In this document: one piece after another, positions 14,502 to 23,943 of the stretch
Position numbering within the stretch: the stretch's first letter is position 1
Layout: each line of letters starts with the position of its first letter
Origin: a virus
DNA length: 29,508 bases
IMG/VR virus record: IMGVR_UViG_3300035698_007354
Location: 1 to 29,508 of that record
Reading direction: 5' to 3' (one strand)
The notes under the pieces: model-generated
Told to the model about the DNA's origin: nothing
The model's database searches: none
What the model saw: the letters and a program-made list of their open reading frames with translations, nothing else
Position numbers and translations under genes: made by a program

Positions 14502-15593
14502 ATGGCAGAAATGAAAGCAGTTGAGATTTTTGGTGTTGGGACTTGGAACGGGCAGAAGTTTGTCCAAGAAGATCTAACTGAAATTGTCAACAATACAAAT
14601 ACGCTGATGGCACAAGGGAAACACAAGCCACCCATCAAGTTGGGTCATTCAGATAAACAGATTTTAGGCCAAAATGACGGACAACCGGCATTGGGCTGGC
14701 CTAACAATTTTGTTGTGATTGGTGCTAAGATCACAGCAGACTTTGGTGATATGCCTGATATACTGTACAAGGCAATTGAAAAGAGATTATTCACACAAAT
14801 ATCAATTGAGATGGACCATATCAAGAATTTTGGTTGGTTCATTACAGCTGTCTCCGTGCTGGGGGCAGATCTACCGGCTGTGAAATCCTTAGAGGATTTG
14901 CAGACGTTTTTGGCTGATGCAGAAGTCTCTTCCAAGATAAACACCGCATCGGTTTTGCAATTTTCAGAACCACATTTCCTTAAACCATCACAAATTGGAG
15001 GAGAAAAAACGATGAGTGATACAAAGTATACTGATGCAGCGGGTGACGCTTTAGCAGCAGAAAATAAACGTCTTAAGGATGACGCAGAAGCGGCAAAAAC
15101 TGCTTTGGCGGATTCAAAAGATAAAGACGTGAAGTTGACTGATGCTGAGAAAGAGCTGGCGCAGTACAAAACAAAGGAAACAGAGAGATCTTTCACTGAG
15201 AAAAAGGAAGCGATTCTCAAGCAGTATAATGAGGATGCTAAGGCCGGGAAACTTGCCCCTGCAATCGTTGATAAGGTCACTGCCTACATTGATGGTCAAA
15301 AGGCCACATTCAGTGAAGGTACCGAACTGTTTCTGAGTCCTGAACTGGCCCAAGAGGTTGGTAAAGCTTACGCAGAAAAGCTTGATAAAAGTGAATCTGC
15401 AAGTGATGGTGGCAGGGAGTTGGATCAAGGGGAAACTCCTGATATGGCCCTGTCTCGTGAAATCGCTGTTGTTATGGCTGGTAATTCCGGCCTATCCTAT
15501 ATGGATGCAGATGCGATTGTCATGACCACCAAACCGAAAGTCTACGCAGACTACCAGGAATGGAGCAACAAAGTCGCAATGGGAGGTAACTAA
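14502..15593 (+). CDS. Prohead protease with C-terminal scaffold (Mu I-like)
   Basis: A 363-residue protein. Residues 1 to about 155 match Mu gpI-type phage proteases: WNGQKFVQEDLTEIVNNTN near the start, then HKPPIKLGHSDKQIL, where the His is the likely catalytic one, PALGWPNNF, and LFTQISIEM, which includes the conserved Ser region. The rest is a long charged helix (AGDALAAENKRLKDDAEAAK onward), typical of scaffold. The scaffold part also has its own in-frame start at 15012. Protease and scaffold act inside the prohead and are removed during maturation. SD AAAGGAT precedes the ATG at 14502. Confidence 0.88.
   Translation: MAEMKAVEIFGVGTWNGQKFVQEDLTEIVNNTNTLMAQGKHKPPIKLGHSDKQILGQNDGQPALGWPNNFVVIGAKITADFGDMPDILYKAIEKRLFTQISIEMDHIKNFGWFITAVSVLGADLPAVKSLEDLQTFLADAEVSSKINTASVLQFSEPHFLKPSQIGGEKTMSDTKYTDAAGDALAAENKRLKDDAEAAKTALADSKDKDVKLTDAEKELAQYKTKETERSFTEKKEAILKQYNEDAKAGKLAPAIVDKVTAYIDGQKATFSEGTELFLSPELAQEVGKAYAEKLDKSESASDGGRELDQGETPDMALSREIAVVMAGNSGLSYMDADAIVMTTKPKVYADYQEWSNKVAMGGN
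15012..15593 (+). CDS. Scaffold protein from internal in-frame start
   Basis: Within the protease gene a textbook SD, GGAGGAG (14997-15003), sits 8 nt before an in-frame ATG at 15012. The predicted 193-aa product starts MSDTKYTDAAGDALAAENKR and is the coiled-coil scaffold alone. This nested arrangement is known for lambda C/Nu3 and Mu I/Z. It would supply many scaffold copies per protease-bearing copy and share the same C-terminus, which likely binds capsid protein. Confidence 0.8.
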   Translation: MSDTKYTDAAGDALAAENKRLKDDAEAAKTALADSKDKDVKLTDAEKELAQYKTKETERSFTEKKEAILKQYNEDAKAGKLAPAIVDKVTAYIDGQKATFSEGTELFLSPELAQEVGKAYAEKLDKSESASDGGRELDQGETPDMALSREIAVVMAGNSGLSYMDADAIVMTTKPKVYADYQEWSNKVAMGGN

Positions 15594-16339
15594 TGTCTAT
15601 TCAGAATAACTACATCCCCTGGGCATTTGGAGCAGGTGAGGCGTTGAATGACGCTAAAAAGGGAACCGGTCATATTTACAAAGCAGTTTCTCAGGGGCAG
15701 GGAAAAATTGCCAATGATGGGAATACAGCTACCGGTATCTTGCAACAAGTGGCACCCAACTCTGGACATGTGACTCAGGGTTATATGGGTATCATGAAGT
15801 TCACCGCTGGTGCAGCCGTTAACTCAGCTGACCAGGAATTGACTGTAACAACCTCCGGGTACATGAAGCTTGCTGATGATGGTGACCGTGTCGTAGGTCG
15901 CACACTCGCAAGTGTTGGATCTGGTGCAGTTGGGTATGGTGTGTTTGATTTTTCCGCCCCTCGTTTGTTTGATAACAACGACGAAGTTTTTGACCTTGTG
16001 GGAACTACCGCACTGGTTGAGAATTACGCTGTTGATTTTTCAACAGGGGCAGAAGCGGACACAAGTAATGTGGCTGGTGGTATTGTCGTTAAGGCAGCTT
16101 CCTCAGGTGATACTGGTAAAGTAAAAGTTATGGGTAAAATGACTTTTATGGCTGGTGCCGGGGTAACTGCTGACACTTCATTGAAAGTCACAACAAATGG
16201 TTATATGCTTGATGCTGGTTCCGGTTACACGATTGTTGGTCGTGCCGTTGCTGCTGTAAGCTCTGGCCAGTCGGGGATTGGTAATTTCAATTTCGCCACT
16301 CCTCATTTCGCAACTAACTGCCTTGATGTCGGTATTTAA
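15593..16339 (+). CDS. Capsid cement/decoration protein with internal duplication
   Basis: The 248-residue protein is built of two similar Gly/Ala/Val-rich beta domains. GYMGIMKFTAGAAVNSADQE then LTVTTSGYM, VVGRTLASV and VFDFSAPRLF in the first correspond to VMGKMTFMAGAGVTADTSLK then VTTNGYM, IVGRAVAAV and NFNFATPHFA in the second. Each resembles the small cement proteins (DUF2190 type) usually found as a single domain. It sits between scaffold and major capsid genes, the usual place. Translation is from TAATG overlapping the protease stop with GGGAGG upstream. Confidence 0.8.
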   Translation: MSIQNNYIPWAFGAGEALNDAKKGTGHIYKAVSQGQGKIANDGNTATGILQQVAPNSGHVTQGYMGIMKFTAGAAVNSADQELTVTTSGYMKLADDGDRVVGRTLASVGSGAVGYGVFDFSAPRLFDNNDEVFDLVGTTALVENYAVDFSTGAEADTSNVAGGIVVKAASSGDTGKVKVMGKMTFMAGAGVTADTSLKVTTNGYMLDAGSGYTIVGRAVAAVSSGQSGIGNFNFATPHFATNCLDVGI

Positions 16340-16358: not shown

Positions 16359-17321
16359 ATGGGAGTTCCACAAGGTCAAGTTATTCATGTTGACCGCCAT
16401 TTGACCAACCTGGCTATGAACTACCGGCCAGAGGGTTTTATTGCGGATCAAATTTTTCCACTCGTTCGAGTGCCTAAACAATCGGATATGATCAAAACGT
16501 ACCTGAAGAATGATCTGTATACGATTGAGAATGACATTCGTGCACCGGGTGCTGAGGCAAATCAGATCAATTTTGAAGTCGGATCTGATAATTATTACTG
16601 CCGAAACTATGCACTCAAAGTACCAACCACGATTGAAGATCGTGTGAACGCTGATCCAATGTTTGTAAGAGACACTGAGCAAGGTCGTGTTCTGTTCATC
16701 CAAGATAAATTGCATCTTGGATGGGAAAATAGAACTTCATCCCAGCTTACGGCCTCTGCAAACGTCTCAACCGTTTTTACGGTGGGGTCTGCCTGGAATG
16801 ACTACACAAACTCCAGACCTTTGGAAGATGTGTGGACAGCCATGGATGAGCAAACTGATAGCACAGCTTATCGGCCCAACCATCATGCAGCTGGTGAGCA
16901 AGCTTGGAGAAGTTTTTCAAGAAACTCACAGGTGATTGATAAAGTAAATGGGACAGGTGTTTCTGGTGGTGGAAAAAACGCCACTAAGGAACAGGCCGCT
17001 CAATTGCTTGAGGCTGAAAAAGTTGTTGTTGGTGCTGCTTTTAAATCTACCGCTGAAGAAGGTCTGGACGCTGCACTTGTGCAGTTCTGGGCTGACAAGT
17101 GGTTGATGTACTATGCGCCCTTACGACCATCAATTGAAGTACCCTCGTTTGGGTACACCTTCAGATGGGCGGCTAAAGGGATTGCAAACATGACAGTTGA
17201 ACGTCATGCTTACAGCTCAACCAAAAAGTCAGATGAGATTGAAACCGGCTACTATCAGGATGAAAAAATCACTGACTCAACTCTGGGAACACTGATTGAC
17301 GGTGTCAATAGTTCTCAGTAA
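16359..17321 (+). CDS. Major capsid protein (HK97-fold, Mu/E-like)
   Basis: A 320-residue protein placed directly after protease-scaffold and cement genes. It begins MGVPQGQVIHVDRHLTNLAM and includes FIADQIFPLVRVPKQSD, a pattern common in major capsid proteins of the E/gpT-like group, and later ALKVPTTIEDRVNAD and a C-terminal IEVPSFGYTFRW block. The SD ACAGGAGAA precedes the ATG. The strong RBS and the hairpin after the gene fit high expression. No sign of an N-terminal delta domain, consistent with the separate scaffold. Confidence 0.85.
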   Translation: MGVPQGQVIHVDRHLTNLAMNYRPEGFIADQIFPLVRVPKQSDMIKTYLKNDLYTIENDIRAPGAEANQINFEVGSDNYYCRNYALKVPTTIEDRVNADPMFVRDTEQGRVLFIQDKLHLGWENRTSSQLTASANVSTVFTVGSAWNDYTNSRPLEDVWTAMDEQTDSTAYRPNHHAAGEQAWRSFSRNSQVIDKVNGTGVSGGGKNATKEQAAQLLEAEKVVVGAAFKSTAEEGLDAALVQFWADKWLMYYAPLRPSIEVPSFGYTFRWAAKGIANMTVERHAYSSTKKSDEIETGYYQDEKITDSTLGTLIDGVNSSQ

Positions 17322-17398: not shown

Positions 17399-17695
17399 AT
17401 GTCATTGACAGGCGTACCAAACAAATTCCCAGATGAGATTGAAACAGTAGTCGGGAAAGAAGTGGCTAGAATAAAGGCCCTGGAAGAAGAGAATGCAGCG
17501 CTCAAGATTGCTGCCATGGAGGATGGTGTTGGCTCAAATGAAATGAGTTTTCAAGGTTATTTTGATATGACCAGAAAAGACTTGCTTGCAGCTGCCCAGG
17601 AGATTGACCCAGAGGTAAAGAGTAATGCACCAACTGTGAACCTTTTGAAACTTTTGCATGAGAGTCACTTCAGTTCCAAAGAAGATGACGAATAA
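17399..17695 (+). CDS. Small acidic protein after capsid (98 aa), possible head protein
   Basis: The ATG at 17399 has AAAGGAG upstream; a longer frame from a TTG at 17351 would run through the hairpin and is rejected. The protein begins MSLTGVPNKFPDEIETVVGK and has a coiled-coil stretch (VARIKALEEENAALKIAAME), then a helical C-terminus ending in acidic SSKEDDE. Position and size suggest a head-completion or Rho-like N-terminal connector protein. No firm family. Confidence 0.65.
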   Translation: MSLTGVPNKFPDEIETVVGKEVARIKALEEENAALKIAAMEDGVGSNEMSFQGYFDMTRKDLLAAAQEIDPEVKSNAPTVNLLKLLHESHFSSKEDDE

Positions 17696-17709: not shown

Positions 17710-18750
17710 ATGAAGATACACATTTATACTAATAACGTTGCCGGTGGTTGGATGCCTGATGATATAGATCAGTTTTTAGGCGGCGGGGAAGAGGTAGTTG
17801 TGCTATTGGCAGAAGCGTTTGTCAGGGCTGGATATGCGGTAAACGTTTACCATAATACGCCAGAACCAGAGCTACTTTTTTCAGATTCTACAATTTTAGC
17901 AGTGGTCAAACCATCATATCCTGATACCCACCAGCGAAATGGGGTATTGTACCTACCGAGGGAAAAAGCCAACTTTGGTAAAGATCCTGAAAATGAAATC
18001 CTGATCACATGGAAAGACTCTACACCAATTGTACAAGGGGCCAGTGTCTTTCGTAATATCCACTTTTCCTCTGATGTCGAGGGTGCTTGGCCTATGAGCA
18101 GCTTGAATCACTTCGTCAACATGTCTAATTACCAACAGGCCAGAAACGTATTTGTCCCAGGAGATAAATCAGTCGTTTGCCCGTTGGGTGTTGACTTGGA
18201 ATCACTGGACAGTAACCGTGTTGATAAAATTCCAAACACAATGCTTTATTGTTCTAGTCCAGACAGGGGGTTAGTAAAACTGGTACAGGACTGGAAAGAG
18301 ATAAAAAAGTTTCATCCTGATTTACTGCTTAAAGTAGCTTACGGGTTCAAGAATTATGAAGCCAATGAGCGAAACGACCCAAGAGCAGGCCAGTGGAGAC
18401 TCAACCTTATCGATATGATGGATAAGGAAGATGGTATTGAATATCTTGGGCAGCTTACCAAAGATCAAATTGAGAAAGAGTATTGGAAAGCAGAATATTG
18501 GTGCCTGCCACTACAACGTCCTGATTCAGAACTGTTCTGCTTGAACGCTATCAAAGCTCGTTATTGTGAGTGTATCCCAGTAATTAATAAGGTTGGGGCA
18601 CTGAAGAACACAGTTGGTTCCTTTATCAACTATGTTGATTTCCTTACCGGCACTGGGTTACTAATAGTTGAAGAAGCCCAACACCACCCAGTAACTTGGG
18701 ATAAGGTTGTGGCTGATTACTGGTTGCCTTTATTCCGGGGGCCGGGCTAA
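17710..18750 (+). CDS. Glycosyltransferase, GT-B (GT4-like)
   Basis: The 346-residue protein has an N-terminal Rossmann-like half starting MKIHIYTNNVAGGWMPDDID with GGGEEVVVLLAEAFVRAGY, and a C-terminal half with TMLYCSSPDRGLVKLVQDW, the usual second-domain strand of GT4 enzymes. The DxPLQRPDSELFCLNAIKAR region is the sugar-nucleotide binding end (the E-x7-E position appears as SELFCLNAIKA). It likely transfers a sugar from a nucleotide donor. SD GAGGT at 17700. Placement straight behind capsid genes suggests virion glycosylation, though a host or lipid target is not excluded. Confidence 0.8.
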   Translation: MKIHIYTNNVAGGWMPDDIDQFLGGGEEVVVLLAEAFVRAGYAVNVYHNTPEPELLFSDSTILAVVKPSYPDTHQRNGVLYLPREKANFGKDPENEILITWKDSTPIVQGASVFRNIHFSSDVEGAWPMSSLNHFVNMSNYQQARNVFVPGDKSVVCPLGVDLESLDSNRVDKIPNTMLYCSSPDRGLVKLVQDWKEIKKFHPDLLLKVAYGFKNYEANERNDPRAGQWRLNLIDMMDKEDGIEYLGQLTKDQIEKEYWKAEYWCLPLQRPDSELFCLNAIKARYCECIPVINKVGALKNTVGSFINYVDFLTGTGLLIVEEAQHHPVTWDKVVADYWLPLFRGPG

Positions 18751-18908
18751 TGGGAAACACTTATGAAGTGTCGGTGTGGGAAAACCATTCTGATGGCATG
18801 TATGGATATCGAACAAAGTATGATGGAGAATCATTTTTGAAAGCTATTTATATGATGATAAAACTGAAACGTGCCGGTATTGGGTGCGTAAAATTTGAGT
18901 GGAGATAA
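18750..18908 (+). CDS. Small protein between glycosyltransferases (52 aa)
   Basis: The start overlaps the upstream stop (TAATG). The product begins MGNTYEVSVWENHSDGMYGY and ends GIGCVKFEWR. The pattern of an N-terminal strand, a YRTKYDGESFLKAIYMMIKL helix and a C-terminal strand is common in small phage ORFs. It is too short to be an enzyme. It lies between two glycosyltransferase genes and is followed within 3 bp by the next one, so it is in the same unit. Confidence 0.6.
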   Translation: MGNTYEVSVWENHSDGMYGYRTKYDGESFLKAIYMMIKLKRAGIGCVKFEWR

Positions 18909-18911
18909 AGT

Positions 18912-21900
18912 ATGAAAATTTTGATGTATGTAGCAGGGATGCCCTTTGACGGACACACATTACAAGAAATCCGGGATAAGAAAACCGGGCAGATTATAAA
19001 GACTTCGCAAGGGCTTGGCGGTTCCGAGACAATGGGTTATTACGTTGCCCGCGAACTGGCTAAGAGAGGGCATACGGTCTTTTGTTTTTGTAGAACTCCA
19101 GATGGGCAGTCAAAGTCAATCGATGGCGTTCAATACCTTCCCATCGGACATGTAACGCAACAGTTTCCGTTTGGTGAGAACTTTGAGAAGTACGCCTTGT
19201 CAGTACCACATGACTTGCTCTTGGGGCAGAGGCTACCAGCATTGTTCAGTAAGAACTATAATTCAAAGCTGAACTACTGGTGGACCCATGATCTTGCTTT
19301 ATTCCGTTACACACAACTTATTAACGCCCAGATATGGAATATTGACCGGGCGTTGGGTGTATCCCAATGGCACGCAAACCAAATTGAAGAGGTCTATGGT
19401 CTGGAAAAAGGCAGGGTCAACGTTTTGCCGAATGCAGTTGATGCATCTCTGTACGCTATTGAAAGGAATATTTCTCCAGATGAAAAAGGGGTCTTGCTTA
19501 AGATACAGCAGGCAGAGAGAAAAATAGCGTCAAAGAATATGGTGTACTCCAGCAGACCTGAGAGGGGCCTGGACATTCTGGTTAATCCTGGTGGTATTAT
19601 GGAACAGCTGCATAAAACACACCCTGGGATTACGCTGACAGTATGTGGGTACGATCATACAGTTGAGGAAATGAGGCCACTTTACCATGCACTATGGAAC
19701 AGGTGCCAACAGCTACCAAATGTACATCTTGCTGGACCACTATCAAAACAGGACTTGGCCACTCTTCAAACAAACAGTTGGTTGCATATTTACCCCAGCG
19801 AATTTGAAGAGACAAGCTGCATCACTGCGATGGAAGAAAGTTTCGCGGGTACTCCAATGCTTGCATGTAAGATTGGCGCACTACCTGAAACTCTGAAAGA
19901 TGGTGGTGTTTATTGGTGTGAAGAGAAGTCTCATGAAGCTATGATTCCTTCGTTCTTAACTTCGATTAAGTACCTTGCAACAAATGAGGGTAAGTGGAAA
20001 CAGCTGCATAAAAAGGCCCTGAAGAAGTCAGAACTTTTTACCATTGAGAACACTGTAGATGTTTTGGAGACCATGGTTGATGAGGACTTTACCAGGAAAA
20101 CAGAAGACAAACAACGTCTTTACAATCATCTGGTTTATTACTCTGATGCGAACGCAGCTAAGGTACTGGCAGAGCAGGAAGGTTTGGAGGTCGAAGACCT
20201 TAGCACTGAGTTCCCCACCTTCGAGAAAGAAGAAAAAGACACCGTTGGTTTCTATGACTCACAAGCTGATTACCATGTAAAGATTGAAAATAAGCACAAT
20301 CTTGGTAACCATGAAGTTCTTTTAAGTTTCCCAAGGATGAGACCAATAGTTGAGCTTTTGAAACGACTACCTACTGGCTCAAGGGTGTTGGATTATGGGT
20401 GTTGTGTAGGTCAGAATACTTTTGCATTAGCCCACACTTTACCGGACCTACAGTTTGATGGGTGTGATATTTCAGAAAATCAAATAAAGATAGGTAGGGG
20501 GTATGCGGAAGAAAACAAAGTACAAAATGTACGGCTTTTTCCATGCCAAAATCCTGGTGATTTGAGTTCTGAGGTAGATATTTATGATGCTGTTATTTGC
20601 TGTGAAGTTCTGGAACATGTCAACGACTACCACGGGTTTCTTACTGACCTGGAGAAGCTTTGTAAGATCGGTGGGCAGATGATTCTTTCAACACCTTTCG
20701 GGCCACATGATCGTACAGTTGAGAACAAAACCACGCCCATTGAGCATGTTCATCATTTTGAAGAGCAGGATATTCTTGATATTCTACCAACCAATGATCA
20801 GGAGAAGCACAACATTATCTATTCAAGAGATCCTGATAATAAATGGGGGGAGAAGTTGGGCAACCTGATCTGGAATTGGACAGTTGAAGAGTACGGAAAG
20901 ATTGGTAAGGTTGACTACTCCCGCAAATTTAAGTTCCAGAAACTCAGACAGTCAGTCTCTGTGTGCATGATTGTCGGCCCTGATGGTGACACGTTAGCCA
21001 AAGCGATCAAATCAGTTTTGACCTTTGCCGATGAACTGGTTATTGGTGTTGATGTTTCTGCATGGGAAGGCAAGGGAATGTGTAATGCTGAGAATATTGG
21101 TATAGCTTTTGGTGCTAAGACTTTCCGACTACCAGATAGCCCAAGAAATATAGGGTTTGATTACTGTCGTAATATGACCTTGGGGCTTGCTACAAAGGAC
21201 TGGATTGTCTGGATTGATGATGACGAAACTTTTCAATGGCCTGAGAATCTGCCGAAGTTCCTCAGGGACAACGAGTTTGATTCATACGCCATCCATCAGC
21301 ACCATTATACCGTTGAACCTCCTGGAGTGATGAAGACAGACCTACCATGTAGGGTGTTTAGAAACGGTAAAGGGATCATGTTTCACGGATTGGTCCATGA
21401 GCACCCGGAAACGTCTTTAAATGCTGGTGCTGGTAAGACATTCTTACTACTCCAGAATGAGGTTTGTATTGCTCATAACGGATACGATAATGAAGAGATC
21501 CGAAGGAACAGGTTTATGCGCAACTGGCCTTTGATGCAGAGAGACCGTAAAGAAAACCCAGACAGAATGCTTGGTAAATACCTGTGGATTAGGGATTTGG
21601 TACACATCAACCGGTTTGAGTTAGAGGCAAACGGGATGCAGGTCACGGATGAGATGGTCGCAAGGTCTAAAGAGGCTATTGTATCTTTTAGAAAGCTGTT
21701 GACTGATGATAAAACCGGTCGCCATGTAAGAGATTCTCTCGCCTATGTTTCTGAGTGTGTAAACATGGTCACGAACGGTGGTGGTTTCAACTTCAGGTTC
21801 TGTATTGATGTTATAACAAAAGGTGTTGGTGATGATTTTAACCAACAACCTACATTGATTCAGGGTGTTATGGAGAGTAAAGAAGACATTAATTTATTAA

Positions 21901-21959
21901 TTGAGAAGATGTTTTCTGAAAAAATTGATCCTCTTGAAAAAATTTCTAAATACCTATAG
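18912..21959 (+). CDS. Glycosyltransferase-methyltransferase-glycosyltransferase fusion
   Basis: A 1015-residue three-domain enzyme. Residues 1-400 are a GT-B/GT4 enzyme: GLGGSETMGYYVARELAKRG (34-53), VYSSRPERGLDIL (211-223) and HIYPSEFEETSCITAMEE (292-309). Residues about 445-640 are a class I SAM methyltransferase: motif I VLDYGCCVGQN (492-502), acidic GCDIS (517-521), VICCEVLEHVND (561-572). Residues 680-900 are a GT-A/GT2 domain: SVCMIVGPDGDTLAKAIKS (683-701), AFGAKTFRLPDSP and WIVWIDDDETF with the DDD motif (769-771). Together they could build and cap (methylate) a short glycan. SD GGAGAT. It lies in the head-tail gap of the late operon, so the likely acceptor is a virion protein. Confidence 0.88.
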   Translation: MKILMYVAGMPFDGHTLQEIRDKKTGQIIKTSQGLGGSETMGYYVARELAKRGHTVFCFCRTPDGQSKSIDGVQYLPIGHVTQQFPFGENFEKYALSVPHDLLLGQRLPALFSKNYNSKLNYWWTHDLALFRYTQLINAQIWNIDRALGVSQWHANQIEEVYGLEKGRVNVLPNAVDASLYAIERNISPDEKGVLLKIQQAERKIASKNMVYSSRPERGLDILVNPGGIMEQLHKTHPGITLTVCGYDHTVEEMRPLYHALWNRCQQLPNVHLAGPLSKQDLATLQTNSWLHIYPSEFEETSCITAMEESFAGTPMLACKIGALPETLKDGGVYWCEEKSHEAMIPSFLTSIKYLATNEGKWKQLHKKALKKSELFTIENTVDVLETMVDEDFTRKTEDKQRLYNHLVYYSDANAAKVLAEQEGLEVEDLSTEFPTFEKEEKDTVGFYDSQADYHVKIENKHNLGNHEVLLSFPRMRPIVELLKRLPTGSRVLDYGCCVGQNTFALAHTLPDLQFDGCDISENQIKIGRGYAEENKVQNVRLFPCQNPGDLSSEVDIYDAVICCEVLEHVNDYHGFLTDLEKLCKIGGQMILSTPFGPHDRTVENKTTPIEHVHHFEEQDILDILPTNDQEKHNIIYSRDPDNKWGEKLGNLIWNWTVEEYGKIGKVDYSRKFKFQKLRQSVSVCMIVGPDGDTLAKAIKSVLTFADELVIGVDVSAWEGKGMCNAENIGIAFGAKTFRLPDSPRNIGFDYCRNMTLGLATKDWIVWIDDDETFQWPENLPKFLRDNEFDSYAIHQHHYTVEPPGVMKTDLPCRVFRNGKGIMFHGLVHEHPETSLNAGAGKTFLLLQNEVCIAHNGYDNEEIRRNRFMRNWPLMQRDRKENPDRMLGKYLWIRDLVHINRFELEANGMQVTDEMVARSKEAIVSFRKLLTDDKTGRHVRDSLAYVSECVNMVTNGGGFNFRFCIDVITKGVGDDFNQQPTLIQGVMESKEDINLLIEKMFSEKIDPLEKISKYL

Positions 21960-22308: not shown

Positions 22309-22761
22309 ATGAATAAGATTGATTGGTGTCTGGCAACAAATTTTAAAGAGACAGAGGCATGGGGTGATCCAGATGTGATGGATTACCAGATTATATGGCT
22401 GATGGCCAATATCCGTATGTCACTTCCAAGTAATTGCTGGATAAAGATACACAAAGGGGCAGCGGAACTCGGCACACATGATGCCAGCAAGTCAAAGCAT
22501 TATAAACGACCATGTCCAGTAACTGATTTTCATGTAGTTGGGTGCCATATTTTAGAGGCTGAAGAGCATATCATGAAGTACCTTCACAACTCTAAAATGA
22601 TCGATTACGTTGGAATCGGTATCTATCCACAATGGGTTTCTCCTGGGTTTCATATTGATATCCGTGGAGTTAGAGCAAGTTGGGCAAAGATCGATGATGC
22701 GTATGTAGGGTACAAACTGGGCGTTGAATACGCTCGTAACCATTTAAGCGGAAGAGGTTAG
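22309..22761 (+). CDS. Endolysin, M15-type peptidoglycan peptidase
   Basis: The 150-residue protein has the zinc-peptidase pattern of M15/DUF882-like endolysins: SKSKHYKRPCPVTDFHVVG with His64 and Asp73, and VGIGIYPQWVSPGFHIDIRG with His115 and Asp117, then VRASW. These are the ligands and catalytic residues of D-Ala carboxypeptidase/L-Ala-D-Glu endopeptidase-type enzymes. It should cleave peptidoglycan cross-links and serve in host lysis. No signal peptide is seen, so it needs a holin. SD GAGGA lies before the ATG. It sits between two membrane protein genes, as in a lysis cassette. Confidence 0.82.
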   Translation: MNKIDWCLATNFKETEAWGDPDVMDYQIIWLMANIRMSLPSNCWIKIHKGAAELGTHDASKSKHYKRPCPVTDFHVVGCHILEAEEHIMKYLHNSKMIDYVGIGIYPQWVSPGFHIDIRGVRASWAKIDDAYVGYKLGVEYARNHLSGRG

Positions 22762-23265: not shown

Positions 23266-23943
23266 ATGAGATTATCAGAAGTACATCAAATCGAATTGAC
23301 TAGTAAGTGTAACCTGTCTTGCGTTTACTGTGTCCATCGAATTATGAAAAGGAAGAAAGAGAACATAACTCAAGAGACTTTCAAAAAGTCTCTTGAGTTA
23401 TGTAAATTGCTTTGGAGAATGGGTACACAAAAGGAATTGTGGCTGTATGGGCTTGGTGAAAGTTTAGTACACCCAGACTTTATGTCTTTTTGCGAGCTTG
23501 CAAGAAAAGAGCTGCCATTGCTGGATATTAAGGTATCAACAAATGGCGAGCTCCTAAAACAGGAGCATATTGATTGTATGGCCGATTGCGGCATAAAATT
23601 ACATATTAGCATGCACAGGCCGGATAAGCTGGGAGCAGCACCAAGAATGGCACAGGCAGCTGGTATTTTGGAATTTATTGGTTGTAACCCGGTTTTAGAG
23701 GCAAATGATTGGGCAGGTCAGGTAGAATGGCAGAAGTCAATGTGTACGAACACTTGTGGCTGGCTTGAGCTTGGTTGGTGTGTGGTGTATGCCAACGGAG
23801 ATATAACCACTTGTTGTGTAGACGCAGAGGGTGATGCCGTTGTAGGTAATGTAGAACAACCGATTACTGAGCTGGTTAATATCGAGATGAAACCATTTCA
23901 TCTTTGTGGTCCATGTAACTTAACAGTACCAGAGGGGATGTAA
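23266..23943 (+). CDS. Radical SAM enzyme with auxiliary-cluster Cys
   Basis: The 225-residue protein has the radical SAM cluster motif CNLSCVYC (Cys15, 19, 22), followed by ELWLYGLGESLVHPDF (a GGEP-like motif) and VSTNGELL, the standard early barrel elements. The C-terminal part has CTNTCGW, WCVVYANGDITTCC and LCGPC (Cys160, 164, 172, 183, 184, 214, 217), like a SPASM/Twitch auxiliary 4Fe-4S site with the usual YANGDITTCC pattern. At 225 aa it is shorter than typical SPASM enzymes. It should perform a radical modification, plausibly of a peptide or protein. It lies between lysis and neck genes in a phage that also encodes glycosyltransferases. A perfect 19-bp hairpin is embedded in it. Confidence 0.88.
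   Translation: MRLSEVHQIELTSKCNLSCVYCVHRIMKRKKENITQETFKKSLELCKLLWRMGTQKELWLYGLGESLVHPDFMSFCELARKELPLLDIKVSTNGELLKQEHIDCMADCGIKLHISMHRPDKLGAAPRMAQAAGILEFIGCNPVLEANDWAGQVEWQKSMCTNTCGWLELGWCVVYANGDITTCCVDAEGDAVVGNVEQPITELVNIEMKPFHLCGPCNLTVPEGM
23363..23403. repeat. Perfect 19-bp hairpin inside radical SAM gene
   Basis: ACATAACTCAAGAGACTTT (23363-23381) and its exact reverse complement (23385-23403) surround a 3-nt loop CAA. The 41 bp encode part of ENITQETFKKSLELC in frame and are fully inside the coding sequence. A 19-bp perfect stem this tight is not expected by chance in ordinary coding DNA. Confidence 0.85.

Follow-up and report, generated by a model that had tools for sequence, protein, structure and literature searches.

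What would a phage do with three glycosyltransferase domains and a methyltransferase encoded behind its capsid genes? The question is raised by a 29.5-kb phage contig filed as a virus record, which was analysed over its whole length and is referred to here as the window. Phage virion glycosylation is documented in a few mycobacteriophages, and the late position of the genes had led the original prediction to propose the same activity for this phage. The first half of the late operon encodes a terminase, a portal/head morphogenesis protein, a protease, a two-domain cement/head-fibre-like protein (15593–16339; like all features given below, on the + strand), and the major capsid protein (MCP; 16359–17321), which belongs to phrog_1005 and has an HK97-like fold. 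The MCP gene is followed by a small protein gene that fills the interval before the glycosyltransferases (17405–17695), a GT4-like gene (17710–18750; 346 aa), a 52-aa gene (18750–18908), and a 1015-aa fusion (18912–21959), after which come small membrane/lysis-like genes, a radical-SAM gene, neck, and tail tube. The three predicted open reading frames and their tight spacing were recovered as claimed, with a 1-nt overlap between the GT4-like and 52-aa genes (TAATG) and a 3-nt gap between the 52-aa gene and the fusion, but of the good ribosome binding sites attributed to all three, only those of the GT4-like gene (GAGG) and the fusion (GGAG) are clear and purine-rich, the one before the 52-aa gene being of lower quality.

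Domain architecture of the fusion enzyme

The fusion consists of a GT4 domain (residues ~1–385), a class I SAM methyltransferase domain (~440–660), a SunS/GmaR-like GT2 domain (~672–850), and four long C-terminal helices predicted by AlphaFold2 (861–954), a region in which Pfam does not match TPR. The GT4 and methyltransferase domains score far over the Pfam cut-off, and the GT2 domain, which Pfam misses, is detected with PHROGs (4e-6) and by searching the PDB with a profile (2e-23), so that all three domain calls for the fusion are supported; the call made for the separate GT4-like gene fares less well, with a score under the Pfam cut-off and an EX7E motif in which a lysine (Lys282) takes the position of the second Glu. 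Profile searches recover homologues that run the full length and keep the domain order in dozens of IMG/VR contigs, with 27–56% identity to the window protein in a 54-row alignment. The GT4 GGSE, HD, and RPER motifs, methyltransferase motif I, and the GT2 DxD and HEHPE motifs are near-invariant at 40% mean identity, and both aspartates of the DxD motif (D769 and D771) are almost invariant across the alignment. Since full-length homologues recur at 30–56% identity and catalytic residues are conserved, the open reading frame is not a chance one, and its AlphaFold2 model has a pLDDT of 92.5 and a pTM of 0.90. Individual motifs are altered in a few lineages, methyltransferase motif I being degenerate in L006 and L117 and the second GT4 Glu missing in L005, L084, L107, and L117.

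The relatives of the GT2 domain are the most informative for function. In the PDB profile search, the leading matches are GmaR (2e-23), SunS (1.5e-22 and 3.8e-22), and ThuS (9e-19), with polysaccharide GT2s starting only at 3e-6, in a comparison for which few polypeptide GT2s have solved structures; SunS and ThuS are also among the top Foldseek matches. By profile, and for SunS and ThuS also by fold, the GT2 domain is placed near the polypeptide glycosyltransferases, and the profile scores set it well apart from the polysaccharide GT2s. GmaR is a flagellin glycosyltransferase, and SunS and ThuS are glycosin S-glycosyltransferases acting on a bacteriocin peptide; none of the three possesses the GT4 and methyltransferase domains found in the fusion. 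The many generic matches of the methyltransferase domain include a distant one to a D-glucose O-methyltransferase. Substrates are not readable from glycosyltransferase domains.

The fusion is absent from the collection of phage records searched. In 50,697 phage records, none has a single place covering 80% of the protein, a DNA-level search of phage records gives zero matches, and tblastn gives only partial domain matches. The literature searched, which leaves out most subscription papers, contains no description of a capsid-linked GT4–methyltransferase–GT2 fusion. Larger versions occur within the family: L171 has a 1355-aa form with two GT2 domains at +527 from the MCP, and in L016 (7578–12452) and L020, a single 1624-aa open reading frame in the virion operon joins a methyltransferase, a GT4 of the separate type, a further GT4, a methyltransferase, and a GT2.

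Linkage to the major capsid protein and mode of inheritance

The original prediction described the glycosyltransferase genes as inserted behind the capsid genes and suggested that co-variation with capsid proteins be examined. In a scan of IMG/VR by MCP patterns only, the fusion lies downstream in 73 of the best 80 loci; all 73 loci with at least 545 nt downstream of the MCP bear it, and the remaining seven run out at most 412 nt past the MCP. The first MCP alignment was built from fusion-bearing contigs, and the scan is thus biased to this clade, not to the neighbouring gene. Each of the 61 nonredundant loci that extend downstream for 4 kb or more has a complete three-domain open reading frame. 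In an MCP tree of 110 sequences less than 95% identical, the fusion is present in 89, absent in 12, and uninformative in 9, and three changes suffice to explain its distribution, as against a mean of 11.6 with shuffled labels. Fusion distances also correlate with MCP distances (Mantel r 0.68; 0/999 permutations). A second scan, for which the MCP set was more divergent, turned up loci without the fusion (L159, L163, L209, and L210), and named relatives without it include RDJL, KPP23, CRP-6, RHph_Y52, EZ-2018a, Kovu, Ottawa, and ValentiniPuff; in the Arthrobacter phages Ottawa and Kovu, the large open reading frame 3′ of the MCP gives no glycosyltransferase match.

Sporadic gain and loss, as expected of an accessory (moron-type) glycosyltransferase, is contradicted by the 73/73 informative MCP loci and the three changes on the tree. 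Retention in the MCP scan, the three-change tree, and the distance correlation together identify the fusion as a core gene that an uncultivated clade has inherited vertically. The word inserted is consequently wrong for the fusion, which is a near-universal component of the capsid operon of its clade, and seems to fit only the separate GT4-like gene, present in 14/89 fusion-bearing lineages, and the 52-aa gene, found in the window only among the relatives examined. In ten relatives of 40–46 kb, the fusion accounts for every GT4 found but one, a separate GT4-like gene.

A scan of bacterial genomes recovered six fusion loci, which come from MAGs of SAR324, Deltaproteobacteria, and Desulfobacterales. 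Five were checked for the MCP, which lies directly upstream of the fusion in four (L151, L153, L154, and L155) and was not detected in L152; both L152 and the sixth locus, L156, are short fragments of contigs. L153 is situated within a 982-kb contig, on which a search for a nearby integrase found the closest tyrosine recombinase ~100 kb away. Of 52 genomes of the same class, five harbour the fusion or sizeable portions of it. Host surface polysaccharide loci with an identical domain order, named in the original prediction as the finding that would count against a role on the virion, were also sought, and none was found in a search that was keyed on the GT4 part and reached only relatives close there. 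The fusion is as constant as the capsid gene over a large uncultivated clade, copies of which are present in MAGs of SAR324 and Deltaproteobacteria, and this constancy suggests that capsids bearing sugars are widespread in nature. In this lineage, virion glycosylation gives the impression of a core property, as opposed to an occasional extra.

Proposed virion glycosylation and competing explanations

Virion glycosylation remains the best reading of the locus, and three findings add weight to it: the linkage with the capsid gene, the polypeptide-glycosyltransferase-like GT2 domain, and the lack of host polysaccharide loci among the relatives reached. The fusion probably serves its clade as a core enzyme of virion glycosylation, passed on by vertical inheritance. 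From the polypeptide-type PDB relatives of the GT2 domain, we infer that this domain initiates on protein, that GT4 extends the glycan, and that the methyltransferase caps it, in that order and with the methyl group on the sugar. In such a pathway, the GT2 domain would attach the first sugar to a Ser/Thr (or Cys) residue in one of the virion proteins encoded by this late operon, most likely a capsid or cement protein, the GT4 domain would add a further sugar in a second step, and the methyltransferase would cap the short glycan by O-methylation. Because the three domains are fused, initiation, extension, and capping would reside on one polypeptide, and such an initiator, extender, and methylator with a predicted acceptor would offer protein glycan engineering a compact tool.

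The main rival is that the enzyme acts late in infection on a surface polysaccharide of the host, in superinfection exclusion or release. Many phage glycosyltransferases modify host surface polysaccharide, surface-polysaccharide loci commonly encode GT4, GT2, and methyltransferase domains alike, and the GT4 domain of the fusion is similar to MshA/PimA-like enzymes. Such genes, however, usually come and go easily, whereas retention here is complete through the MCP clade to ~40% identity; no flippase, polymerase, or membrane-anchored glycosyltransferase is seen beside the fusion in the window, and the GT2 domain is closest to the polypeptide enzymes, which leaves this explanation unlikely. Glycosylation of a protein outside the virion, such as a host receptor, flagellin, or pilin, has precedents in GmaR, which acts on flagellin, and SunS, which acts on a peptide, but the tight clade-wide linkage to the MCP and the common distance pattern point to a virion partner and make it improbable. 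Modification of phage DNA bases (hypermodification against restriction) is the least probable of the three, for although DNA-modifying phage glycosyltransferases are known and those encoded by large aquatic phages have been considered from this angle (PMC12619734), thymidylate synthase/hydroxymethylase-like genes, a usual source of a modifiable base and the only base-modifying genes that the survey covered, occur in just 2–3 of the ten relatives of 40–46 kb, the GT2 domain is of the polypeptide type, and the fusion gene lies in the capsid operon, distant from the replication genes.

Virion glycosylation in mycobacteriophages, encoded by Che8 gp108–110 and Corndog gp38, is the closest analogue. 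In Che8, the capsid and tail tube proteins are reported to be glycosylated C-terminally (PMC12619734; PMC12363180), and these proteins end in short Ser/Thr tails (…FNKTGS and …QYSDGS), as does the MCP of the window (…GVNSSQ). Che8 likewise encodes glycosyltransferases together with a methyltransferase, and gp108 is by Pfam a GT2–methyltransferase fusion, a precedent that tempers the earlier description of the window fusion as unusual in a phage. However, the Che8 glycosyltransferases match the GT2 and GT25 families and are encoded by separate genes at the opposite end of the genome from the MCP, whereas the window has one polypeptide behind the MCP, and gp108, gp109, and gp110 give no match to the fusion profiles. 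As judged from these comparisons, the fusion system would work like that of Che8 but is not a member of it, with no detectable enzyme homology and a different genomic placement. A further parallel is found in the unrelated podovirus ctKR88 (MW202524; L218, 3147–7307), which has GT2 and GT4 in one protein directly behind the MCP and further glycosyltransferases and methyltransferases at the same locus. Its MCP is a different one, its order is reversed (GT2–TPR–GT4), and its methyltransferases are separate, and because both the MCP and the domain order differ, capsid-adjacent fused glycosyltransferases probably arose more than once.

Candidate acceptors and accessory genes

The best single guess for the acceptor, put forward tentatively from sequence comparison, is the Ser/Thr tail of the MCP, which in the window comprises residues 316–320 (VNSSQ; 17304–17318). 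MCPs ending in [NTG]S[SAV], a motif defined post hoc after the pattern had been noticed in the sequences, account for 80/89 of those with the fusion and 1/12 of those without it, examples of the tail being VNSST, VTSSQ, GVGSAQ, and VTSV. The column of Ser318, three residues short of the C-terminus in the window, holds a serine in 81/85 fusion-bearing MCPs and is among the most conserved serines of the protein. The tail cannot serve as the acceptor in all lineages, since L001 and L003, the closest relatives of the window, lack the tail Ser and keep the fusion intact, and its association with the fusion may reflect common descent, as both are restricted to one clade. A fuller proposal, in which the trifunctional enzyme glycosylates the C-terminal Ser/Thr tail of the MCP as an obligatory step of virion biogenesis across a family-level clade and the radical-SAM protein tailors the glycan in some branches, is somewhat more doubtful than the tail as acceptor.

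Two rival acceptors were also inspected. The tail tube protein closes with a conserved TLVNT-like segment and shows no tail like that of the MCP, and the C-termini of the cement proteins, including that of the alternative candidate 5′ of the MCP, contain Ser, Thr, or Cys, but variably. The cement/head-fibre-like protein itself is built from one domain in tandem repeat, and in its relatives, both the number of domains and the number of gene copies vary between one and two.

The separate GT4-like and 52-aa genes are accessory. The 52-aa protein belongs to phrog_10015, a small phage protein family found in 71 phage records including Klebsiella, Gordonia, and Arthrobacter phages, and its gene is remote from any glycosyltransferase in both records inspected. 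A role as carrier or acceptor was rejected on account of this occurrence in unrelated phages, away from glycosyltransferases in those two records, and the protein is probably unrelated to the fusion enzyme.

The radical-SAM/SPASM protein (23266–23943; 225 aa) has a complete CxxxCxxC motif, and its closest solved relative is BtrN, a dehydrogenase acting on an aminocyclitol. Its gene is present in 9/49 informative lineages with three changes on the tree and lies between the MCP and the fusion in some of them; in L009, L014, L021, and L023, it occurs there twice, and this placement, often doubled, makes it a likely partner of the fusion. Oxidation of the glycan by this protein is a plausible guess by analogy, given the relationship to BtrN and the recurrence of the gene, sometimes between the MCP and the fusion. 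Together with the accessory GT4-like protein, it may provide extra glycan modification in some lineages. Between the fusion and the radical-SAM gene, a 150-aa protein (22309–22761) carries SKHY…DFH and GFHIDIRG motifs, resembles an M15-type peptidase by eye without a Pfam match, and is possibly the endolysin.
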